A DNA stretch of 35,328 nucleotides from a bacterium. Its GTDB lineage: Bacteria; Desulfobacterota; S145-22. The first letter of the stretch is position 1. Each line of letters begins with the position of its first letter. A model generated the notes under the pieces. The model did not search any database. It was not told the DNA's origin and saw only the letters and a program-made list of their open reading frames with translations. The stretch is taken from contig JAOZMY010000016.1 in NCBI GenBank assembly GCA_029934085.1, forward strand, positions 1 through 35,328, written 5' to 3'. Positions 1-32,384 of the stretch are shown here, piece after piece. The translations under genes and the position numbers were made by a program.

Positions 1-1343
1 ACTGCTTCTGCCTGATGACCTCGGCAGATGAACCGCCCCGGCGGGGATGGGATCTGCTCATCGAGGATAACCGGGTGGCTCATATTGCCGAAACAATCGA
101 CTTTGTGCCTGCGGCGGGTGATCGAGTCATCGACTGTTCCACCTTCGTTGTGGTACCCGGATTCGTGAATACCCATCACCACTTCTATCAGACCCTGACA
201 CGCAATCTGCCGGCGGTCCAGAACGCCAAACTGTTCGACTGGCTGGTCTATCTCTACGAGATCTGGAAGAACATCGATGAGGACGCCGTTTATACCAGTT
301 CCATGCTCGCCATGGGGGAGCTGCTGAAAACGGGGTGCACCACTTCGACGGATCATCACTATCTCTATCCCCGAGCCATCACGGGGGATATCATGGGCCT
401 CCAATTCGAGGCGGCGGAGCGATTGGGGATTCGGTTTTCCCCCACTCGGGGCTCCATGTCCCTGAGCAAAAAGGACGGGGGGTTGCCTCCCGACTCTGTG
501 GTACAAACGGACGAAGAAATTCTGAAAGACAGCGAGCGGGTTATTCAGCAGTTCCATGACACTTCGGAGCTCTCCATGCGGAAGATCGTCCTCGCCCCCT
601 GCAGCCCCTTCAGTGTGACAGAACCGCTGATGAGAGAAACGGTGGCCCTGGCGCGGCGGCATGGGGTCCGGCTGCACACCCATCTGGCGGAGACGGCGGA
701 CGAGGATGATTTCTGTATCAAGATGTACGGCCGGCGTCCCTTGAAACTGATGGAGGATACGGGCTTCATCGGGGATGATGTCTTCTACGCGCATGGGATT
801 CATTTCAACGACGAGGAATTGAAGCTGTTGAGCGAGACGGGAACCCATATTGCCCACTGCCCCTCCTCCAACATGCGGCTGGGTTCCGGGATCTGCCGGG
901 TAAAGGAGATGCTTGCCCTGGGAATCAACGTGGCTCTTGCAGTGGACGGTTCCGCCTCCAACGACACCTCGGATATGCTGGGTGAGATGCGGCAGGCCCT
1001 GCTGCTCCAGCGCGTCCGATACGGCAGCGACGCGGTTAACGCGATGGATATCTACCGCATGGCCACGGTGAACGGAGCGAAACTGCTCAATTTCGAGAAG
1101 GTGGGGGAGCTCCGGGAAGGCTGGGCGGCGGATGTGGCCGTTTTTAATATCGATCAACTGGGGTACGCGGGGGCACTGTCGGATCCCCTGGCGGCCCTCA
1201 TTTTTTCCGGTTATGACCACCAGACAGCCTTTACCATCGTTAATGGGAAGATCGTGGTGGACGAGGGAAGGCTCGTGGGAATCGATGAACAGGAACTGAC
1301 CCGCAAGGCCAACGCCATATCGGAACGGCTGATGAAGAAATGA
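1..1343 (+). CDS. 8-oxoguanine deaminase-like amidohydrolase (5' partial)
   Basis: This is an amidohydrolase-superfamily deaminase (SsnA/TrzA/AtzA group). The best match I recall is 8-oxoguanine deaminase, which makes urate from 8-oxoguanine. Seen in the sequence: the metal-binding motif VNTHHHFYQ, then HTHLAE, AHGIHF, HCPSSNMRLGSG and AVDGSASND, in the order expected of the family. The QTLTRNLPAVQNAKLFDWL stretch is typical of 8-oxoguanine deaminases. The frame is open upstream of the first ATG (position 15), and the usual N-terminal beta segment before LLIEDNR is incomplete, so the gene probably begins before the window and about 10-20 residues are missing. It precedes a molybdenum hydroxylase, which fits purine breakdown. 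Guanine or a triazine-like substrate cannot be excluded. Confidence 0.85.
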   Translation, partial: CFCLMTSADEPPRRGWDLLIEDNRVAHIAETIDFVPAAGDRVIDCSTFVVVPGFVNTHHHFYQTLTRNLPAVQNAKLFDWLVYLYEIWKNIDEDAVYTSSMLAMGELLKTGCTTSTDHHYLYPRAITGDIMGLQFEAAERLGIRFSPTRGSMSLSKKDGGLPPDSVVQTDEEILKDSERVIQQFHDTSELSMRKIVLAPCSPFSVTEPLMRETVALARRHGVRLHTHLAETADEDDFCIKMYGRRPLKLMEDTGFIGDDVFYAHGIHFNDEELKLLSETGTHIAHCPSSNMRLGSGICRVKEMLALGINVALAVDGSASNDTSDMLGEMRQALLLQRVRYGSDAVNAMDIYRMATVNGAKLLNFEKVGELREGWAADVAVFNIDQLGYAGALSDPLAALIFSGYDHQTAFTIVNGKIVVDEGRLVGIDEQELTRKANAISERLMKK

Positions 1344-1476: not shown

Positions 1477-2253
1477 ATGATTCAACATGCTTACAAGCCC
1501 GCGTCCCTTGAGGAGGCGGTGGAACTCAGAAACAAGGAGAAGGCTATCTATCTCAGCGGCGGCACGCAGGTAAACTGGGCGGGATCGAACCTCCACCCTG
1601 AGAAGGTCGTCCTGCTGGAAGGTCTCCTGCCGGATACGGTGAAGAAAGTAAATGACCGCCTGGAGATCGGCGCCGGAATTACTCTCCAGGCGCTGATGGA
1701 CACGAGGGATGTTCCCGAACCTTTGCGGCGCGCGGCGGAGTTTATTTTCTCCCGGAGCGTTCGCAACATGGCGACCCTCGGCGGCAATATCGCGGCAAAT
1801 CGGACGGATTCTTACGTGATTCCCGCTTTGATCGCACTGAACGCCTGGGTCAAGACCGTCGATGGTGGAGAGATCCCGGTGGAAGAGTATCTCACCCGGG
1901 GCAAGGATGCCCTCATCGAGTGGGTGATCCTGCCTGAGGTGGCGGGCCGGTGTGTGGTGGACCGGGCGGCGCTTTCGGCGGCCGCTTATCCGACGCTGAC
2001 TCTGGCCGTCCGGGTGGCCGATGGAGAGACCGTGATTGCCGTGGGGTGTTTGGCAGATCATGTCATCCGATTGAAGGCGGTGGAAGAAAACATAACCTCA
2101 GGAGAGCTTACATCCGAAGAAGCGGTTTTCAACGCGGTGTGCGAGGCGGTTGATCCGCCGGACAGCCTGAAGGAGAGTGGCCCCTATCGTAAATATATCA
2201 CGGCCACGATGGTCGCCCGCGCGGTGATGGAATGTATGGGGGTGACGTCATGA
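1477..2253 (+). CDS. ygfM: FAD-binding subunit of molybdenum hydroxylase (YgfM-like)
   Basis: This 258-residue protein is the medium, FAD-binding subunit of a xanthine dehydrogenase-type enzyme. It would carry electrons from the molybdenum subunit to an acceptor in the cytoplasm. Seen: an N-terminal YLSGGTQ segment (about residues 25-31), which corresponds to the first FAD pyrophosphate loop, and ATLGGNIAAN (about 99-108), the second FAD motif, followed by the small C-terminal CO-dehydrogenase flavoprotein domain. Length and opening residues resemble E. coli YgfM as I recall it. The start has a GGGAGAAAA ribosome-binding site. Its stop overlaps the ATG of the next gene (ATGA at 2250), so the two subunits are likely translationally coupled. 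Confidence 0.88.
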   Translation: MIQHAYKPASLEEAVELRNKEKAIYLSGGTQVNWAGSNLHPEKVVLLEGLLPDTVKKVNDRLEIGAGITLQALMDTRDVPEPLRRAAEFIFSRSVRNMATLGGNIAANRTDSYVIPALIALNAWVKTVDGGEIPVEEYLTRGKDALIEWVILPEVAGRCVVDRAALSAAAYPTLTLAVRVADGETVIAVGCLADHVIRLKAVEENITSGELTSEEAVFNAVCEAVDPPDSLKESGPYRKYITATMVARAVMECMGVTS

Positions 2254-5123
2254 AGATAAGAATCGTTTTGAACGGCACACCCCGGGAGATCACCACGGAG
2301 CCGGGAGAAAATGTCCAGAAACTTCTGAAACGCGTCGGCATCAACTCGGTCCGCGACAGCGATAACGGTTACGCCTTCGCGGGATCCGACCTGATCTGGT
2401 TGAACGGAAAGATTGTTTACGCGTCCCTGCTTATCGCGGCACAGATCGACGGAAAGGAGATCCGCACCGTGGAGTGGCTGTCCCGGGATGGGGTCCTTTC
2501 TCCCGTTCAGTCCGCCATGGTGGACGCAGGAGTAGTCCAGTCAGGCTACAATATGCCCGCGGCGGCTCTGCTTCTCGATGACCTTCTGAATCGGATTCCC
2601 AATCCCACGAAGGAGGATATCAGGGACGCCCTATCCCCCCTCTACGTTCGGGACAGCGGATACGAGCAGTTCTTCAAGGCAGTGGAGCTGGCCGTGGCAC
2701 GTCGGAAGGACCCGGACTATATCACCACCATCGCCCCGGAGTTCCGGGACGACCTTCGGTTCGTAGGGAAAGTCAAGAGAAAGGTGGATGCGGCCAAGCT
2801 GGCACGGGGGGAGCGGGTTTTCGTGGAGGACCGGGTCGAGCCCGGCTCCTGCGTGATGAAGGTCTTGCGCAGCCCCCATGCCCATGCCTATATCAATGCC
2901 ATCGATACGTCTGAGGCAAAAGAGATCCCCGGCGTGGTGGAAATCTTCACGTATGAGAACACGCCGGAGGTCTGGTATACCCAGGCGGGACAGTGCTTTC
3001 CCGAACCGTCCCCTTATGACCGGCGGCTCATCGGACGCAAGGTGCGACACGTGGGAGACCGGGTCGCGGCGGTGGTAGCGGAGACAGAAGAGATCGCCGA
3101 GACGGCCCTTGAGAGGATCCGGGTGGACTACGAGGTGCTGCCCCCCGTTCTGACTATTGACGAGGCGGCCGCGCCGGACGCCCCGATCATCCATCATTCG
3201 GAGACCCGGTACCGCACAGGGGCCCCGGCGGACCTGGAAGAAAGGAACAAGGATCTGGATCCCCGCGAAGGCAAGGTGATTTATATGTTTCCCATCGGTG
3301 GGAATCCCCATAAAAATATAGCCGCCAGCGTATCGGGCGGCATCGGAGATATCGAGAAGGGGTTTGCCGAGGCCGACGTGGTGATCGAGCGAACATATGA
3401 GCCGTCTTCCCATGTTCAGTGCACGCCTTTGGAGACTCATACCGTTTATACCAAGATGGAAGGGGACCGGCTGATCATGCACTGTTCCACCCAGGTCCCG
3501 TTCCACGTGCGACGGATCACCGCCTCGGTCCTGGGCATCAGTGAGAATCGTATTCGGGTCGTCAAAGAGCGAGTGGGGGGAGGCTACGGTTCGAAACAAG
3601 ATATCCTCCTCGAGGAACTGTGTGCCTATGCCACCTACAAGACCGGACGGGCAATCTTCTACCAGTATTCGAGAAGGGAGGAATTCGAGGCTGCCAGCAC
3701 CCGGAAGCCGATGAAGATCCGGATGAAGTTGGGGGCGAAAAAGGACGGCACACTCACTGCGATTTACATGGACCTTAAGGCCAATACGGGACCCTACGGG
3801 GCGCACGCCCTGACGGTCCCCATGAACGCCTGTTCCAAGTCGCTGCCCCTCTTCCTCTGCGAGAACGTGAAGTTTGACGTGACGGTCTATTATTCAAACA
3901 TCTCTCCTACCGGGGCATATCAGGGTTACGGCGCTCCGAAAGGCTCCTTCGCTATGCAGATGGCCGCGGCCGAGATGGCGGAGACCCTCGGGATGGACCC
4001 CTTCGAATTCATCGAGAAGAACCGGGTGCGGGAGGGAGTCATGCTCGAGATCCTGAAGTGCCTCGGTGAGGGCCGGGAGGGAGCGGCCGCCCCCGTGGAG
4101 AGCTGTGGCCTGAGCCCCGCCCTGGAGCAGGGGGCCCGGATGATTGAATGGGGAAAACGGGAGGTCTCCGACGATCCCGACGTGAAGATCGGCAAGGGAG
4201 TGGCCATCGTCCAGCAGGGATCGGGCCTGCCCGGGCTGGATCAGTCCAACGCAACCATCAAGATGCTGGGAGACGGAACCTTCATGCTCTTTACCGGCGG
4301 GGCGGACCTGGGCACCGGCCTGGATACGGTTTGCGTCAAAATGGCGGCGGAGGAGCTGGCAACGGACATGGACAATATCGGCATCCTTTCCGGGGATACG
4401 GACAACACGCCCTTCGATTCTGGGGCCTTCGCCTCGAGCGGAACCTTCTTTTCCGGAAGCGCCGCGCTCCTGGCCGCCCGTGACATGAAACGGAAGATCC
4501 TCGAGGCCGCTGCACGGGTGATGGGGGAATCCGAGGAAGACCTAACTATTACCTACCCCGGCAAGGTGGTAGGTAAAAAGGGCGAGCTGACCTACAAGGA
4601 ACTGGCCTGGCACACCCAGGCCGGCGAGGGAATCGGCCAGCTCATCGGCGAGGGGCACTTCACCACGGACAAGTTCGCCTTTCCCTACGGGGCCCACTTC
4701 GCTCAGGTGGCCGTCAATACACGGACCGGGGCCATTGAGGTGCAAAAGTATTACGCCCTGATGGATGCGGGGATGCCCATCAACCCGGAGCTGGCCGAGG
4801 GGCAGATCTACGGAGCTGTTGTCAAGTCGATCGGGCATACCCTCTATGAAAACGTCGTCTATGACCGGGAAGGCCATCCGCTGAACACCGAGCTTCGGTC
4901 CTACGGTCCTCCCATCATCAAGGACATCCCGGACGACTTCAAGGCGGTGCTCATCTACACGGACGACCCTTACGGTCCTTACGGTGCCAAGTCCGTCTCG
5001 GAGGTCAGTGTCAATGGTGCCGCCCCGGCCATTGCAAGTGCTATCCACGACGCCGTCGGTGTCTGGCTTCGAAGCTGGCCCATCACGCCGGAGGCGGTGT
5101 TGAAAGAGTTAGGGAAGATTTGA
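2250..5123 (+). CDS. xdhD: XdhD-like molybdenum hydroxylase with degenerate 2Fe-2S domain
   Basis: This 957-residue protein fuses a ferredoxin-like N-terminal region (about 1-150) to a molybdopterin-binding large subunit. Length and sequence match E. coli XdhD (YgfN), a putative selenium-dependent hypoxanthine or purine hydroxylase. Seen: the cofactor-site segments GGGYGSKQD, AYQGYGAPKG and YGAKSVSE, the last carrying the likely catalytic Glu. The Arg of the xanthine dehydrogenase FRGFG motif is Gln here, so xanthine need not be the substrate. Residues 1-150 contain no cysteine: the CGYC position reads SGYN and the CRCTGY position reads VRDSGY. I chose ATG 2250, which overlaps the previous stop, over an upstream ATG at 2232. 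No Se-cofactor or Mo-cofactor gene is in the window. Confidence 0.87.
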   Translation: MKIRIVLNGTPREITTEPGENVQKLLKRVGINSVRDSDNGYAFAGSDLIWLNGKIVYASLLIAAQIDGKEIRTVEWLSRDGVLSPVQSAMVDAGVVQSGYNMPAAALLLDDLLNRIPNPTKEDIRDALSPLYVRDSGYEQFFKAVELAVARRKDPDYITTIAPEFRDDLRFVGKVKRKVDAAKLARGERVFVEDRVEPGSCVMKVLRSPHAHAYINAIDTSEAKEIPGVVEIFTYENTPEVWYTQAGQCFPEPSPYDRRLIGRKVRHVGDRVAAVVAETEEIAETALERIRVDYEVLPPVLTIDEAAAPDAPIIHHSETRYRTGAPADLEERNKDLDPREGKVIYMFPIGGNPHKNIAASVSGGIGDIEKGFAEADVVIERTYEPSSHVQCTPLETHTVYTKMEGDRLIMHCSTQVPFHVRRITASVLGISENRIRVVKERVGGGYGSKQDILLEELCAYATYKTGRAIFYQYSRREEFEAASTRKPMKIRMKLGAKKDGTLTAIYMDLKANTGPYGAHALTVPMNACSKSLPLFLCENVKFDVTVYYSNISPTGAYQGYGAPKGSFAMQMAAAEMAETLGMDPFEFIEKNRVREGVMLEILKCLGEGREGAAAPVESCGLSPALEQGARMIEWGKREVSDDPDVKIGKGVAIVQQGSGLPGLDQSNATIKMLGDGTFMLFTGGADLGTGLDTVCVKMAAEELATDMDNIGILSGDTDNTPFDSGAFASSGTFFSGSAALLAARDMKRKILEAAARVMGESEEDLTITYPGKVVGKKGELTYKELAWHTQAGEGIGQLIGEGHFTTDKFAFPYGAHFAQVAVNTRTGAIEVQKYYALMDAGMPINPELAEGQIYGAVVKSIGHTLYENVVYDREGHPLNTELRSYGPPIIKDIPDDFKAVLIYTDDPYGPYGAKSVSEVSVNGAAPAIASAIHDAVGVWLRSWPITPEAVLKELGKI

Positions 5124-5305
5124 TTGGCGGAAGAGGCGATAAAAACGGGAACTTAGTGCTTCGAAGGGTGATGAGACAGACAAGGAGTGTAAAAAGTTCA
5201 AGCGGATAAAATGGTTGTAAAAGAGCCAGACAAACAAGACACTATCCCCTGAATCCTGAGGTGGGACGGTTTTAGAAAGCAACACTGGTAAAATTCTGAA
5301 AGCCC

Positions 5306-5321
5306 CACCTTACGTAAGGTG
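5306..5321. promoter_or_regulatory. perfect 16-bp palindrome, candidate MerR-family operator 1
   Basis: CACCTTACGTAAGGTG is a perfect inverted repeat centred on ACGT. It lies 10 bp upstream of a TATAAT hexamer and would cover the -35 position of such a promoter. A related 16-mer at 5373-5388 matches 13 of 16 positions, and a segment just upstream of the merR gene matches 12 of 16. Assignment to the MerR protein is inference. Confidence 0.5.
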
Positions 5322-5367
5322 ATAAAATATTTATAATTGTTAATAAAATTACATTGTTATAAATTAA

Positions 5368-5393
5368 TTTGCCAGGTTACGGAAGGTGGCAAA
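5368..5393. promoter_or_regulatory. 26-bp imperfect dyad, candidate operator 2
   Basis: Perfect 7-bp arms TTTGCCA and TGGCAAA flank the core GGTTACGGAAGG, giving 20 of 26 symmetric positions. The internal 16-mer CAGGTTACGGAAGGTG is a variant of operator 1. The dyad ends 15 bp upstream of the TTGACA hexamer, a position suited to an activator or a nearby repressor. Confidence 0.45.
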
Positions 5394-5408
5394 GAACCTT
5401 TTTTGTAC

Positions 5409-5438
5409 TTGACAACCTTTTTCAAACTATGTTATGAA
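5409..5438 (+). promoter_or_regulatory. sigma70-like promoter for the transporter/ligase operon
   Basis: A perfect TTGACA -35 hexamer (5409-5414) is followed after 18 bp by TATGAA (5433-5438), a 4 of 6 match to the -10 consensus. Transcription from it would give a leader of about 70 nt before the livG start at 5515. Confidence 0.5.
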
Positions 5439-5514
5439 CAGTTTTGTCTTATGAAAGTTCGTTGCCGACATATCGGAAATTTCGGGCGGGTATTTCGAAA
5501 AGGGAGATGAATCC

Positions 5515-31166: not shown

Positions 31167-32384
31167 ATGTCAGGCCCAATAGATATTTTCAGGTCGGGCA
31201 AACTCAAGGGTGTGAAGAATCAGGGCCCTGTCTACGCGTGGGAGGAGGGACGCGCCTCGTTGTTTCTTGACGAGATTTCGTTTGGGGGTGCACTAGGGGG
31301 AATTCTGTGTTATTATAATCCGCCCGTGCATCAGGTAGGGAATCCGGGCTTGGATGCCTACCATGCCGCACTGGATGAGATCTTTGAAAACAAGTTGAAC
31401 GAGTGGTCTTTCCTGATTTTTTACGGTGGATGCGATCCGGTTCACGCGGGTGGAGACTTGAAGGAGAGCCTCAACCGCCTCACGGAGACCATTGAGAAGC
31501 GGAAAGAGCTGGAAAAAGAGGGACGACCTCAGGAGGAAATTGAGGCCCTCTACGCATGGGGTGACAAACGAATCGAAAAAGGGGTAGGCCTCTATAAGAA
31601 GGTCCGTCAGGTTTCACAACACATGCGGACGCTGGCTATCTGTGGGGGCGGAACACGGTTCGGGGGATCCGCGGAGATTACCTTGATGACGGATGTCCTC
31701 ATCGGGGATTCGCGTTCCGGTATGTGTTTCAGCGAGGCACAAATCGGGCTGATCCCAGGATGGGCCGGAGTAGGGCGGAGCTATACCAAGGCGGGATATC
31801 TGAATGCCAAATTTATGGCGTCCACCAGCCGGGAAGTGAAGGCGGGAGACTTGAAGGCGTGCGGGATTTACAATACCGTTGTAGAGGTAGCGCAGCCTTT
31901 CCCGAGGAAAGAGCGAACCGACGATCCTCAGAGGGATAAGCAAAGATATGCTGAGGCCCTTCAGGCGCACAACGATGAGATCGGGGCGTTGCTTGCACCG
32001 GTAGCCTTGGAATTGGCCACATGCCCGAAACATCAAATGCCGGTGTTGACGGGAAAGGACCGAAGGGTGCTTGCCACGGAGCGCGAGATCGAGGAGGAAG
32101 TGACCCGGAGAGTCGACCCCATGAACTATGAGGGTTTGTGGGGAAGGCCCTTGAGGGAAGTAAAAGAGGAGATTAAGAAATTGGGTAGGCCCCTGGCCCC
32201 CCAATCTATCAAGGAGCTGAAACATCTTTTCGAGACCTATCCGGAGGATCGTTTCGACGAGGCAAAGTTTGTGGAAGATGAAAAGCAGGCGGATTCCCGC
32301 CTCTATAGGGACCCCCGCTTCAAGCTGGGAATTATTGCAACCTTGGAACAGAAAGTAGCAGATTTTAGGGAGGTACAAGAATGA
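31167..32384 (+). CDS. crotonase-superfamily protein, long form (405 aa)
   Basis: This crotonase-fold acyl-CoA enzyme is about 140 residues longer than a classical enoyl-CoA hydratase. Seen: first oxyanion segment HAGGDLKE (93-100), second oxyanion segment GGTRFGGSAE (161-170) and GLIPGWAGVG. Glu170 and Glu190 stand 20 residues apart, as do the two catalytic Glu residues of enoyl-CoA hydratase (144 and 164). Extra sequence lies between the oxyanion segments (about 101-150, charged, possibly helical) and in a C-terminal region of about 150 residues. AAAGGGGG precedes the ATG. Its stop overlaps the gcdA start. It could be a hydratase for a glutaconyl- or methylglutaconyl-CoA-like substrate, or a ring-opening hydrolase of the BamA kind; I cannot decide. 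Confidence 0.75.
   Translation: MSGPIDIFRSGKLKGVKNQGPVYAWEEGRASLFLDEISFGGALGGILCYYNPPVHQVGNPGLDAYHAALDEIFENKLNEWSFLIFYGGCDPVHAGGDLKESLNRLTETIEKRKELEKEGRPQEEIEALYAWGDKRIEKGVGLYKKVRQVSQHMRTLAICGGGTRFGGSAEITLMTDVLIGDSRSGMCFSEAQIGLIPGWAGVGRSYTKAGYLNAKFMASTSREVKAGDLKACGIYNTVVEVAQPFPRKERTDDPQRDKQRYAEALQAHNDEIGALLAPVALELATCPKHQMPVLTGKDRRVLATEREIEEEVTRRVDPMNYEGLWGRPLREVKEEIKKLGRPLAPQSIKELKHLFETYPEDRFDEAKFVEDEKQADSRLYRDPRFKLGIIATLEQKVADFREVQE

Follow-up and report, generated by a model that had tools for sequence, protein, structure and literature searches.

Members of the xanthine oxidase family minimally carry a pair of [2Fe-2S] clusters according to the available text of PMC9370002 (papers are cited here for those parts of their text that were available). 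In E. coli, purified XdhD (b2881), together with a 30 kDa protein that co-purified and was identified as presumably YgfM (b2880), converted urate to yanthine in vitro with NADH (reduced nicotinamide adenine dinucleotide), the next pathway step being the action of YgfK with SsnA on yanthine (Li et al., 2025, PMC12507026). Glu606 of E. coli XdhD was proposed there, from a model, as the specificity residue that orients urate for yanthine formation. Here we describe an XdhD encoded near the left end of a window of 35,328 nucleotides, i.e., bases 1–35328 of contig C145 in a Desulfobacterota genome of 2.4 Mb (94% complete, 170 contigs). Its N-terminal domain is of the ferredoxin type, with every cysteine ligand replaced, and it almost certainly holds no [2Fe-2S] cluster.

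Loss of the cluster ligands in XdhD

The window protein shares with E. coli XdhD 57% identity in the molybdenum (Mo) domain, the loss of all eight cysteines, the ygfM-xdhD gene pair and the Glu606 column. E. coli has ssnA where the window has an 8-oxoguanine-deaminase-type gene, and urate activity has been shown for the E. coli enzyme, whereas the window protein is known from sequence. By Mo-domain homology (Pfam MoCoBD_1 and MoCoBD_2 both matched) and by fold it belongs to the xanthine oxidase family; it departs from the cluster pair described for that family (PMC9370002) in that all eight ligand positions are replaced. The Mo domain is also homologous to that of selenium-dependent xanthine dehydrogenase (TIGR03311), where the window protein scored 308.1 bits, far under the cut-off of 830.45.

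The N-terminal domain matched Pfam Fer2_2 with 51.3 bits (cut-off 30.3) and, by phmmer, solved iron-sulfur subunits. An AlphaFold2 model built with 25 sequences had a predicted local distance difference test (pLDDT) score of 87 overall and of 83–95 per ten-residue block over residues 11–160, and displayed the strands and helices expected for the ferredoxin and helical subdomains. Its top full-length structural match (Foldseek rank 1) was D. gigas aldehyde oxidoreductase (1SIJ), which has the same fused N-terminal and Mo domains and superposed over model residues 6–962 (Z 37.6, 2.6 Å, 860 residues). That enzyme presumably holds two [2Fe-2S] clusters, whereas the window protein has no ligands for them. 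The fold also matched 1RM6 and mammalian xanthine oxidoreductases.

Residues are numbered from the start in the open reading frame (ORF) list, i.e., position 2232 (963 amino acids). The alternative ATG at 2250, which the first-pass annotation had used, is probably the true start because it fits E. coli XdhD and a same-genus homologue better. That annotation had also reported that the N-terminal ferredoxin domain has no cysteine, and the only cysteines of the protein are indeed at residues 207, 255, 397, 418, 464, 534, 543, 610, 625 and 701. All eight ligand columns, at residues 44, 50, 53 and 65 in the ferredoxin subdomain and 104, 107, 139 and 141 in the helical subdomain, are occupied by other residues (Table 1). 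Alignment gave 0/8 for E. coli XdhD as well, in agreement with the annotation. By contrast, the domain carried 8/8 cysteines in all five other molybdenum hydroxylases found in the window genome. Because E. coli K-12 and 41 further rows of the survey described below are cysteine-less while these five paralogues keep every ligand, chance or assembly error is excluded; sequencing error was rejected too, many independent genomes sharing the loss.

Purifying selection acts on the N-terminal domain, and both its ferredoxin and its helical parts are intact in the model, in agreement with the earlier view that the loss is not decay. Identity to E. coli XdhD was 56% and 59% for the two halves of this domain and 57% for the Mo part. 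The ratio of nonsynonymous to synonymous substitution rates was 0.153 for the N-terminal and 0.098 for the Mo domain against the same-genus homologue, and 0.100 and 0.054, respectively, against L082; silent sites were saturated in most other pairs.

Public genomes were searched with the Mo domain alone, so that cysteine state was not selected for, and TIGR03313 searches were added in several groups; the locus scan covered the best 80 of 104 loci with two short peptide patterns. Left out were 25 named loci, i.e., ten same-locus repeats, a fragment (L193), 11 close enterobacterial loci (all cysteine-less) and the outgroup loci L180, L188 and L189. Outside the row counts stand L082, L113 and L125 (too partial) and L094 (frame-broken), all four cysteine-less. 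Five loci at 39–44% identity with separate eight-cysteine small subunits (L085, L086, L087, L089 and L104) were treated as outgroup and not as XdhD. After removal of repeats, the XdhD clade comprised 52 sampled rows, of which 43 were cysteine-less (39 with none of the eight cysteines and four with one) and nine had all eight. The cysteine-less form is present in several phyla. The iron-sulfur binding implied by the name of TIGR03313 finds no ligand in the window protein, and for the cysteine-less proteins, 43 of the 52 rows, the names "Mo/Fe-S-binding subunit" (NCBIfam) and "Fe-S binding subunit" (RefSeq) mislead.

The cysteine-bearing rows were L060 (Deltaproteobacteria), L111 (Terriglobia) and seven from the Spirochaete phylum (e.g., L148, L162 and L164). 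Like the window protein they pass the TIGR03313 cut-off, have the fused domain order and share the Glu606 column, and those from the Spirochaete phylum have their type of gene cluster in common with cysteine-less forms; they differ in having 8/8 cysteines and a YgfM with cysteine at E. coli position 113. In the Spirochaete phylum 34 genomes were above the TIGR03313 cut-off, of which 25 were taken as loci, two were read later and seven were left unread; the two later loci were cysteine-less (L217) and cysteine-bearing (L218, the eighth such case in the phylum). The first-pass annotation had regarded the loss as a family trait, to be overturned by close homologues that keep the cysteines. L060 and L111, which have 61–62% full-length identity with the window protein, are such homologues, and with nine of 52 aligned rows at 8/8 the family-trait claim fails. 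The loss itself stands.

In the Mo-domain tree one change is enough for the XdhD clade, and a single loss there was not rejected by the approximately unbiased (AU) test (p = 0.53), the backbone inside XdhD lacking resolution in the careful tree; both trees were built under LG+G4 without a mixture model. A single ancestral loss in this clade suffices but is not proven. Matches came from 12 of 25 genomes in one Chloroflexi order: six were cysteine-less (L184, L219, L220, L224, L225 and L227), five had eight cysteines (L221, L223, L226, L228 and L229), and in L222 no domain was found. The six cysteine-less rows formed one clade (support 100/100), and a common origin of their loss with that of the XdhD clade was rejected (AU p = 3.6e-8). 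Complete loss of the cluster ligands arose at least twice, the second clade having lost them independently. A half loss was seen in one genome (L108, Anaerolineales, 2341–5505), in which the ferredoxin-subdomain cysteines are replaced by D, S, D and Y and those of the helical subdomain are kept; we take the cluster lost there to be the flavin-side one.

Two side observations concern the survey. Five distant molybdenum-hydroxylase genes among the 80 loci (L105, L106, L107, L129 and L133; 26–34% identity) had no [2Fe-2S] domain found in the available DNA, and their small subunit may be encoded elsewhere. In L094 (Flavobacterium paronense) the run ygfK-ssnA-ygfM-xdhD is broken in many frames, probably by read errors, and the xdhD pieces are cysteine-less.

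The flavin partner and the emptied sites

Most members of the xanthine oxidase family typically have a flavin adenine dinucleotide (FAD) subunit or domain; YgfM has the fold and glycine motifs of such a subunit, without an aspartate (hereafter the motif Asp) that lies nine residues after the Asn of TxGGN. This residue presumably contacts FAD in bovine xanthine oxidase. We compared 34 partners of cysteine-less and eight of cysteine-bearing XdhD (L108 and L213 were left out, and two more cysteine-bearing partners were recognised by pattern only) with 16 xdhB-type controls, i.e., the best matches to E. coli XdhB, some of them closely related. The motif Asp was present in 16/16 controls, 2/8 partners of cysteine-bearing XdhD and 0/34 partners of cysteine-less XdhD. 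At its position the cysteine-less Chloroflexi partners had Glu in all five that were read, and L108 had Ala. Outer cysteine-bearing relatives had the motif Asp in 14 of 15 readable cases, a count that omits L183 (whose match looks like a different xdhB-type subunit) and the many loci that end before the motif. Thus in these data iron-sulfur loss was seen only where the motif Asp is gone, and this Asp was often missing from partners of XdhD that keeps its cysteines. Together with the half loss in L108, this pattern of few events suggests that the chain was dismantled from the flavin side inward.

A second mark separated the two kinds of partner: cysteine at E. coli YgfM position 113 was found in all eight aligned partners of cysteine-bearing XdhD (and in the two recognised by pattern) and in none of the 34 others. 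This Cys113-type subunit lies upstream of xdhD in L060, L111, L199–L205 and L218. The motif Asn (E. coli YgfM 106) was dropped as a sign of flavin loss, since solved FAD subunits have Asp or Ser there.

In the cysteine-less XdhD rows, several replacements are near-fixed: D44 (40/43), D53 (42/43), S104 (40/43), N107 (42/43) and D141 (36/43). The polar share at the emptied sites was 0.797, against a mean of 0.377 over the N-domain columns, and was reached by a fraction of only 0.0009 of random eight-column sets. At site 1, 39 of 43 rows had at least three polar side chains out of four, and at site 2 all 43 rows did. The cysteine-less Chloroflexi clade fills its sites differently (S, T, A/S, D/E, S, A/S, D, E). 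With near-fixed polar residues in one clade and another set in the other, the emptied sites look rebuilt and not abandoned. A relay of Tyr or Trp at these sites was considered and rejected: relative to cysteine-bearing rows, the only aromatic gains in the N-terminal domain were Phe49 (42/43), which adjoins a lost ligand, and position 138 (41 Phe and two Tyr in 43 rows). Columns 788 and 841 of the Mo domain gained Tyr in cysteine-less rows.

Urate reduction and the route of electrons to molybdenum

The Glu606 column was Glu in 52/52 XdhD rows, the window protein included, and in 7/7 outgroup rows, and because of this invariance the cysteine-bearing and cysteine-less forms probably carry out the same chemistry. 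By sequence and by analogy with E. coli, XdhD is predicted to be the urate dehydroxylase (urate to 2,8-dioxopurine, i.e., yanthine) of an anaerobic uricolytic gene set. The window xdhD adjoins a deaminase-type gene and ygfM, and a fuller cluster surrounds it in the relatives L056 and L206. In the Spirochaete phylum both forms occur in the same cluster type (ygfK, ssnA, ygeY, deaminase-type gene, ygfM, xdhD and ygeW), cysteine-bearing in L199 and cysteine-less in L207 and L208; with both kinds of relative in one cluster type, the electron route is directly testable.

Lacking clusters, XdhD needs some other path for electrons to molybdenum, as the first-pass annotation had recognised. We infer that this path does without iron-sulfur; its course is unproven. 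In the reading that we prefer, tentatively and at a little less than even confidence, molybdenum would be the only metal redox centre left in XdhD. It would accept two electrons in one step from NADH or a different hydride donor positioned at the molybdenum site or near it, with no one-electron carrier in between; the canonical NADH-FAD-FeS-FeS-Mo chain would have been taken apart from the flavin side inward. The N-terminal domain would now be a scaffold and a docking face for YgfM. A bolder version seems unlikely when taken whole: that XdhD-YgfM has lost a working flavin along with both clusters, which would make it the first xanthine oxidase family enzyme to work with molybdenum alone, that its molybdenum accepts hydride straight from NADH or some other donor and dehydroxylates urate with it, and that flavin site, flavin-side cluster and Mo-side cluster were lost in that order, at least twice.

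Several observations weigh against the preferred reading. The ygfM gene adjoins xdhD in every cysteine-less locus with enough flank, although there is no obvious use for it in an enzyme with molybdenum alone; the model of the window YgfM has the fold known from solved FAD subunits of the molybdenum hydroxylase class; and the two glycine motifs are kept in most YgfM (32/34 and 28/34), the second being kept in only 11/16 xdhB-type controls. Inner cysteine-bearing Chloroflexi have the motif Asp in only one of eight readable cases (L241; L189 and L237 are poorly aligned). With the Asp gone in 7/8 of these and in 6/8 partners of cysteine-bearing XdhD, its loss alone does not equal loss of flavin or cluster. 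The earlier suggestion that FAD might be dispensable fares unevenly: the flavin motif is altered, but the flavin subunit gene is kept beside xdhD. The N-terminal domain is also somewhat less conserved than the Mo domain among cysteine-less rows (mean top-residue frequency 0.63 versus 0.71), clearly so in the pair L056-L142 (80.4% versus 89.7%). Finally, XdhD-YgfM was modelled on R. capsulatus xanthine dehydrogenase and, on the strength of modelling, the NADH assay was interpreted as showing that electrons enter at FAD in YgfM (PMC12507026); in the accessible parts of the literature searched we met no measurement of metals, flavin or kinetics on a cysteine-less XdhD.

The retained flavin subunit would be explained if NADH reduced FAD in YgfM and electrons then passed directly and slowly from flavin to molybdopterin with no relay. 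Product formation with NADH by purified E. coli XdhD-YgfM (PMC12507026) fits this route, as do the constant pairing of ygfM with xdhD and the FAD-subunit fold predicted for YgfM, and a very slow enzyme is compatible with assay sections that give 10 μM enzyme, 1 mM substrate and no rate (PMC12507026). Such transfer is nonetheless somewhat unlikely, given that the motif Asp is missing in 34/34 flavin partners of cysteine-less XdhD and that the aromatic gains are Phe49 and Phe138, not a Tyr/Trp relay. The flavin-molybdenum distance in solved homologues exceeds 20 Å, past the usual limit of fast tunnelling. Alternatively, a separate iron-sulfur protein (YgfK, AegA/YgfT or a ferredoxin) might stand in for the lost clusters as donor. 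Many clusters contain ygfK, and a search of 17 locus genomes found YgfK scoring over its cut-off in 10; a role in urate degradation that depends on formate has been proposed for AegA (PMC8097209), and the physiological donor of clostridial XdhAC is called unknown, with the kinetic parameters of the pathway enzymes also listed as open, in the text of PMC12990295. An outside donor would still meet no cluster near molybdenum, YgfK has its own step in the reduction of yanthine (PMC12507026), and the genomes of two cysteine-less alphaproteobacterial loci, L062 and L090, whose completeness is not stated, had no YgfK match at E 1e-60, the ygfM-xdhD pair of L062 lying beside unrelated housekeeping genes. 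Because of its own pathway step and these two genomes, YgfK is unlikely to be the partner as a rule, and the search for a YgfK-like partner that the first-pass annotation had proposed led only to a fragment on a separate contig; an external donor of any kind is improbable.

Polar residues at the emptied sites raise a further alternative, namely that the new Asp, Asn and Ser bind other metal ions, as a relay or as structural ions. The near-universal polar filling of both sites and the polar replacements in the Chloroflexi clade are what it would predict, but buried polar residues can simply hydrogen-bond and the replacements differ between the two clades, so we hold it very improbable. That the domain is decaying and the enzyme inactive is barely credible: the loss of all ligands could be read in that way, but purifying selection, conservation across several phyla and the activity of the E. 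coli enzyme reject a pseudogene. A redox-neutral transhydroxylase, in which one purine is oxidised as urate is reduced, is disfavoured, since urate, NADH and enzyme are the sole components named for the assay (PMC12507026).

The available Results and Methods text of PMC12507026 reports neither a cofactor analysis of XdhD nor a rate, and the last purification buffer described there contained dithiothreitol; the main text has no match to "2Fe-2S" or "cysteine". In C. difficile, separate FeS or FAD subunit genes are described as absent from some molybdenum hydroxylase loci (PMC11448449). The lost cysteines are not mentioned in the available text of that paper, nor in that of PMC2276186 and PMC2997495, which mention the E. 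coli genes, and no mention of cysteine loss in XdhD was found in the accessible parts of the open-access literature searched.

E. coli XdhD, which starts urate breakdown in the gut and forms part of an engineered gout probiotic, belongs to the cysteine-less clade. Engineering of uricolytic strains should not presume iron-sulfur clusters at the step from urate to yanthine. How electrons are delivered to molybdenum in a urate-reducing enzyme that has kept the folded domain and lost its cluster cysteines is a testable question.

Gene neighbourhood of xdhD in the window

At the left end of the window the amidohydrolase gene, ygfM and xdhD follow one another tightly (Table 1), the ygfM stop and the xdhD start sharing four bases (ATGA). 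The true start of the amidohydrolase gene may lie outside the window, its frame being open from base 3.

Table 1. Features at the left end of the window (positions in the window; residue numbers count from the start at 2232)
Feature	Position	Strand	Evidence
Amidohydrolase, 8-oxoguanine deaminase type	15..1343	+	NF006055 588.9 bits vs cut-off 532
ygfM, FAD-type subunit	1477..2253	+	TIGR03312 162.6 bits, under cut-off 241.5; PF00941 81.5 bits
xdhD, fused N-terminal ferredoxin-type and molybdenum domains	2250..5123	+	TIGR03313 1360.8 bits vs cut-off 1101.9
Cysteine-less [2Fe-2S]-type domain, residues 7-160	2250..2711	+	Fer2_2 match; 0 cysteines; model pLDDT 83-95
Former cluster site, ferredoxin subdomain: residues 44, 50, 53, 65 = D, A, D, S	2361..2426	+	Columns vs cysteine-bearing relatives
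Former cluster site, helical subdomain: residues 104, 107, 139, 141 = S, N, V, D	2541..2654	+	Columns vs cysteine-bearing relatives
Hammerhead and molybdopterin-binding domains (PF01315, PF02738, PF20256)	2808..4931	+	Pfam
Glu613, equivalent of E. coli XdhD Glu606	4068..4070	+	Residue number inferred from alignment offset

A separate contig of the window genome (L001, contig C151, 3064 bases) carries an ssnA-like gene (368.5 bits, under the cut-off of 444) followed by the N-terminal 560 residues of ygfK, a fragment ended by the contig edge; these genes are probably part of the same set as the left end of the window. E. coli yqeB, yqeC and mocA queries had no match in the window, selenium-cofactor genes not having been searched for genome-wide.

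A deaminase-type amidohydrolase gene stands directly 5' of ygfM-xdhD in the window and in L056, L057, L081, L199 and L206–L210, and its product could supply 8-oxoguanine to urate breakdown. In the alphaproteobacterial L062 and L090, ygfM-xdhD has no other recognised uricolytic genes nearby, the neighbours in L062 being trigger factor, clp and lon.

The stretch of the window from 5515 to 34120 is by its gene content an acyl-CoA (acyl-coenzyme A) degradation region. Directly after xdhD come branched-chain-type ATP-binding cassette transporter genes with an acyl-CoA ligase gene among them, and further along are genes for a thiolase, hydroxyacyl-CoA and acyl-CoA dehydrogenases, electron-transfer flavoprotein, a 4Fe-4S/NAD-binding protein, methylmalonyl-CoA mutase and two carboxyltransferases. 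The two carboxyltransferase genes flank an ORF of 405 amino acids (31167–32384) that had no Pfam match at E 1e-10.

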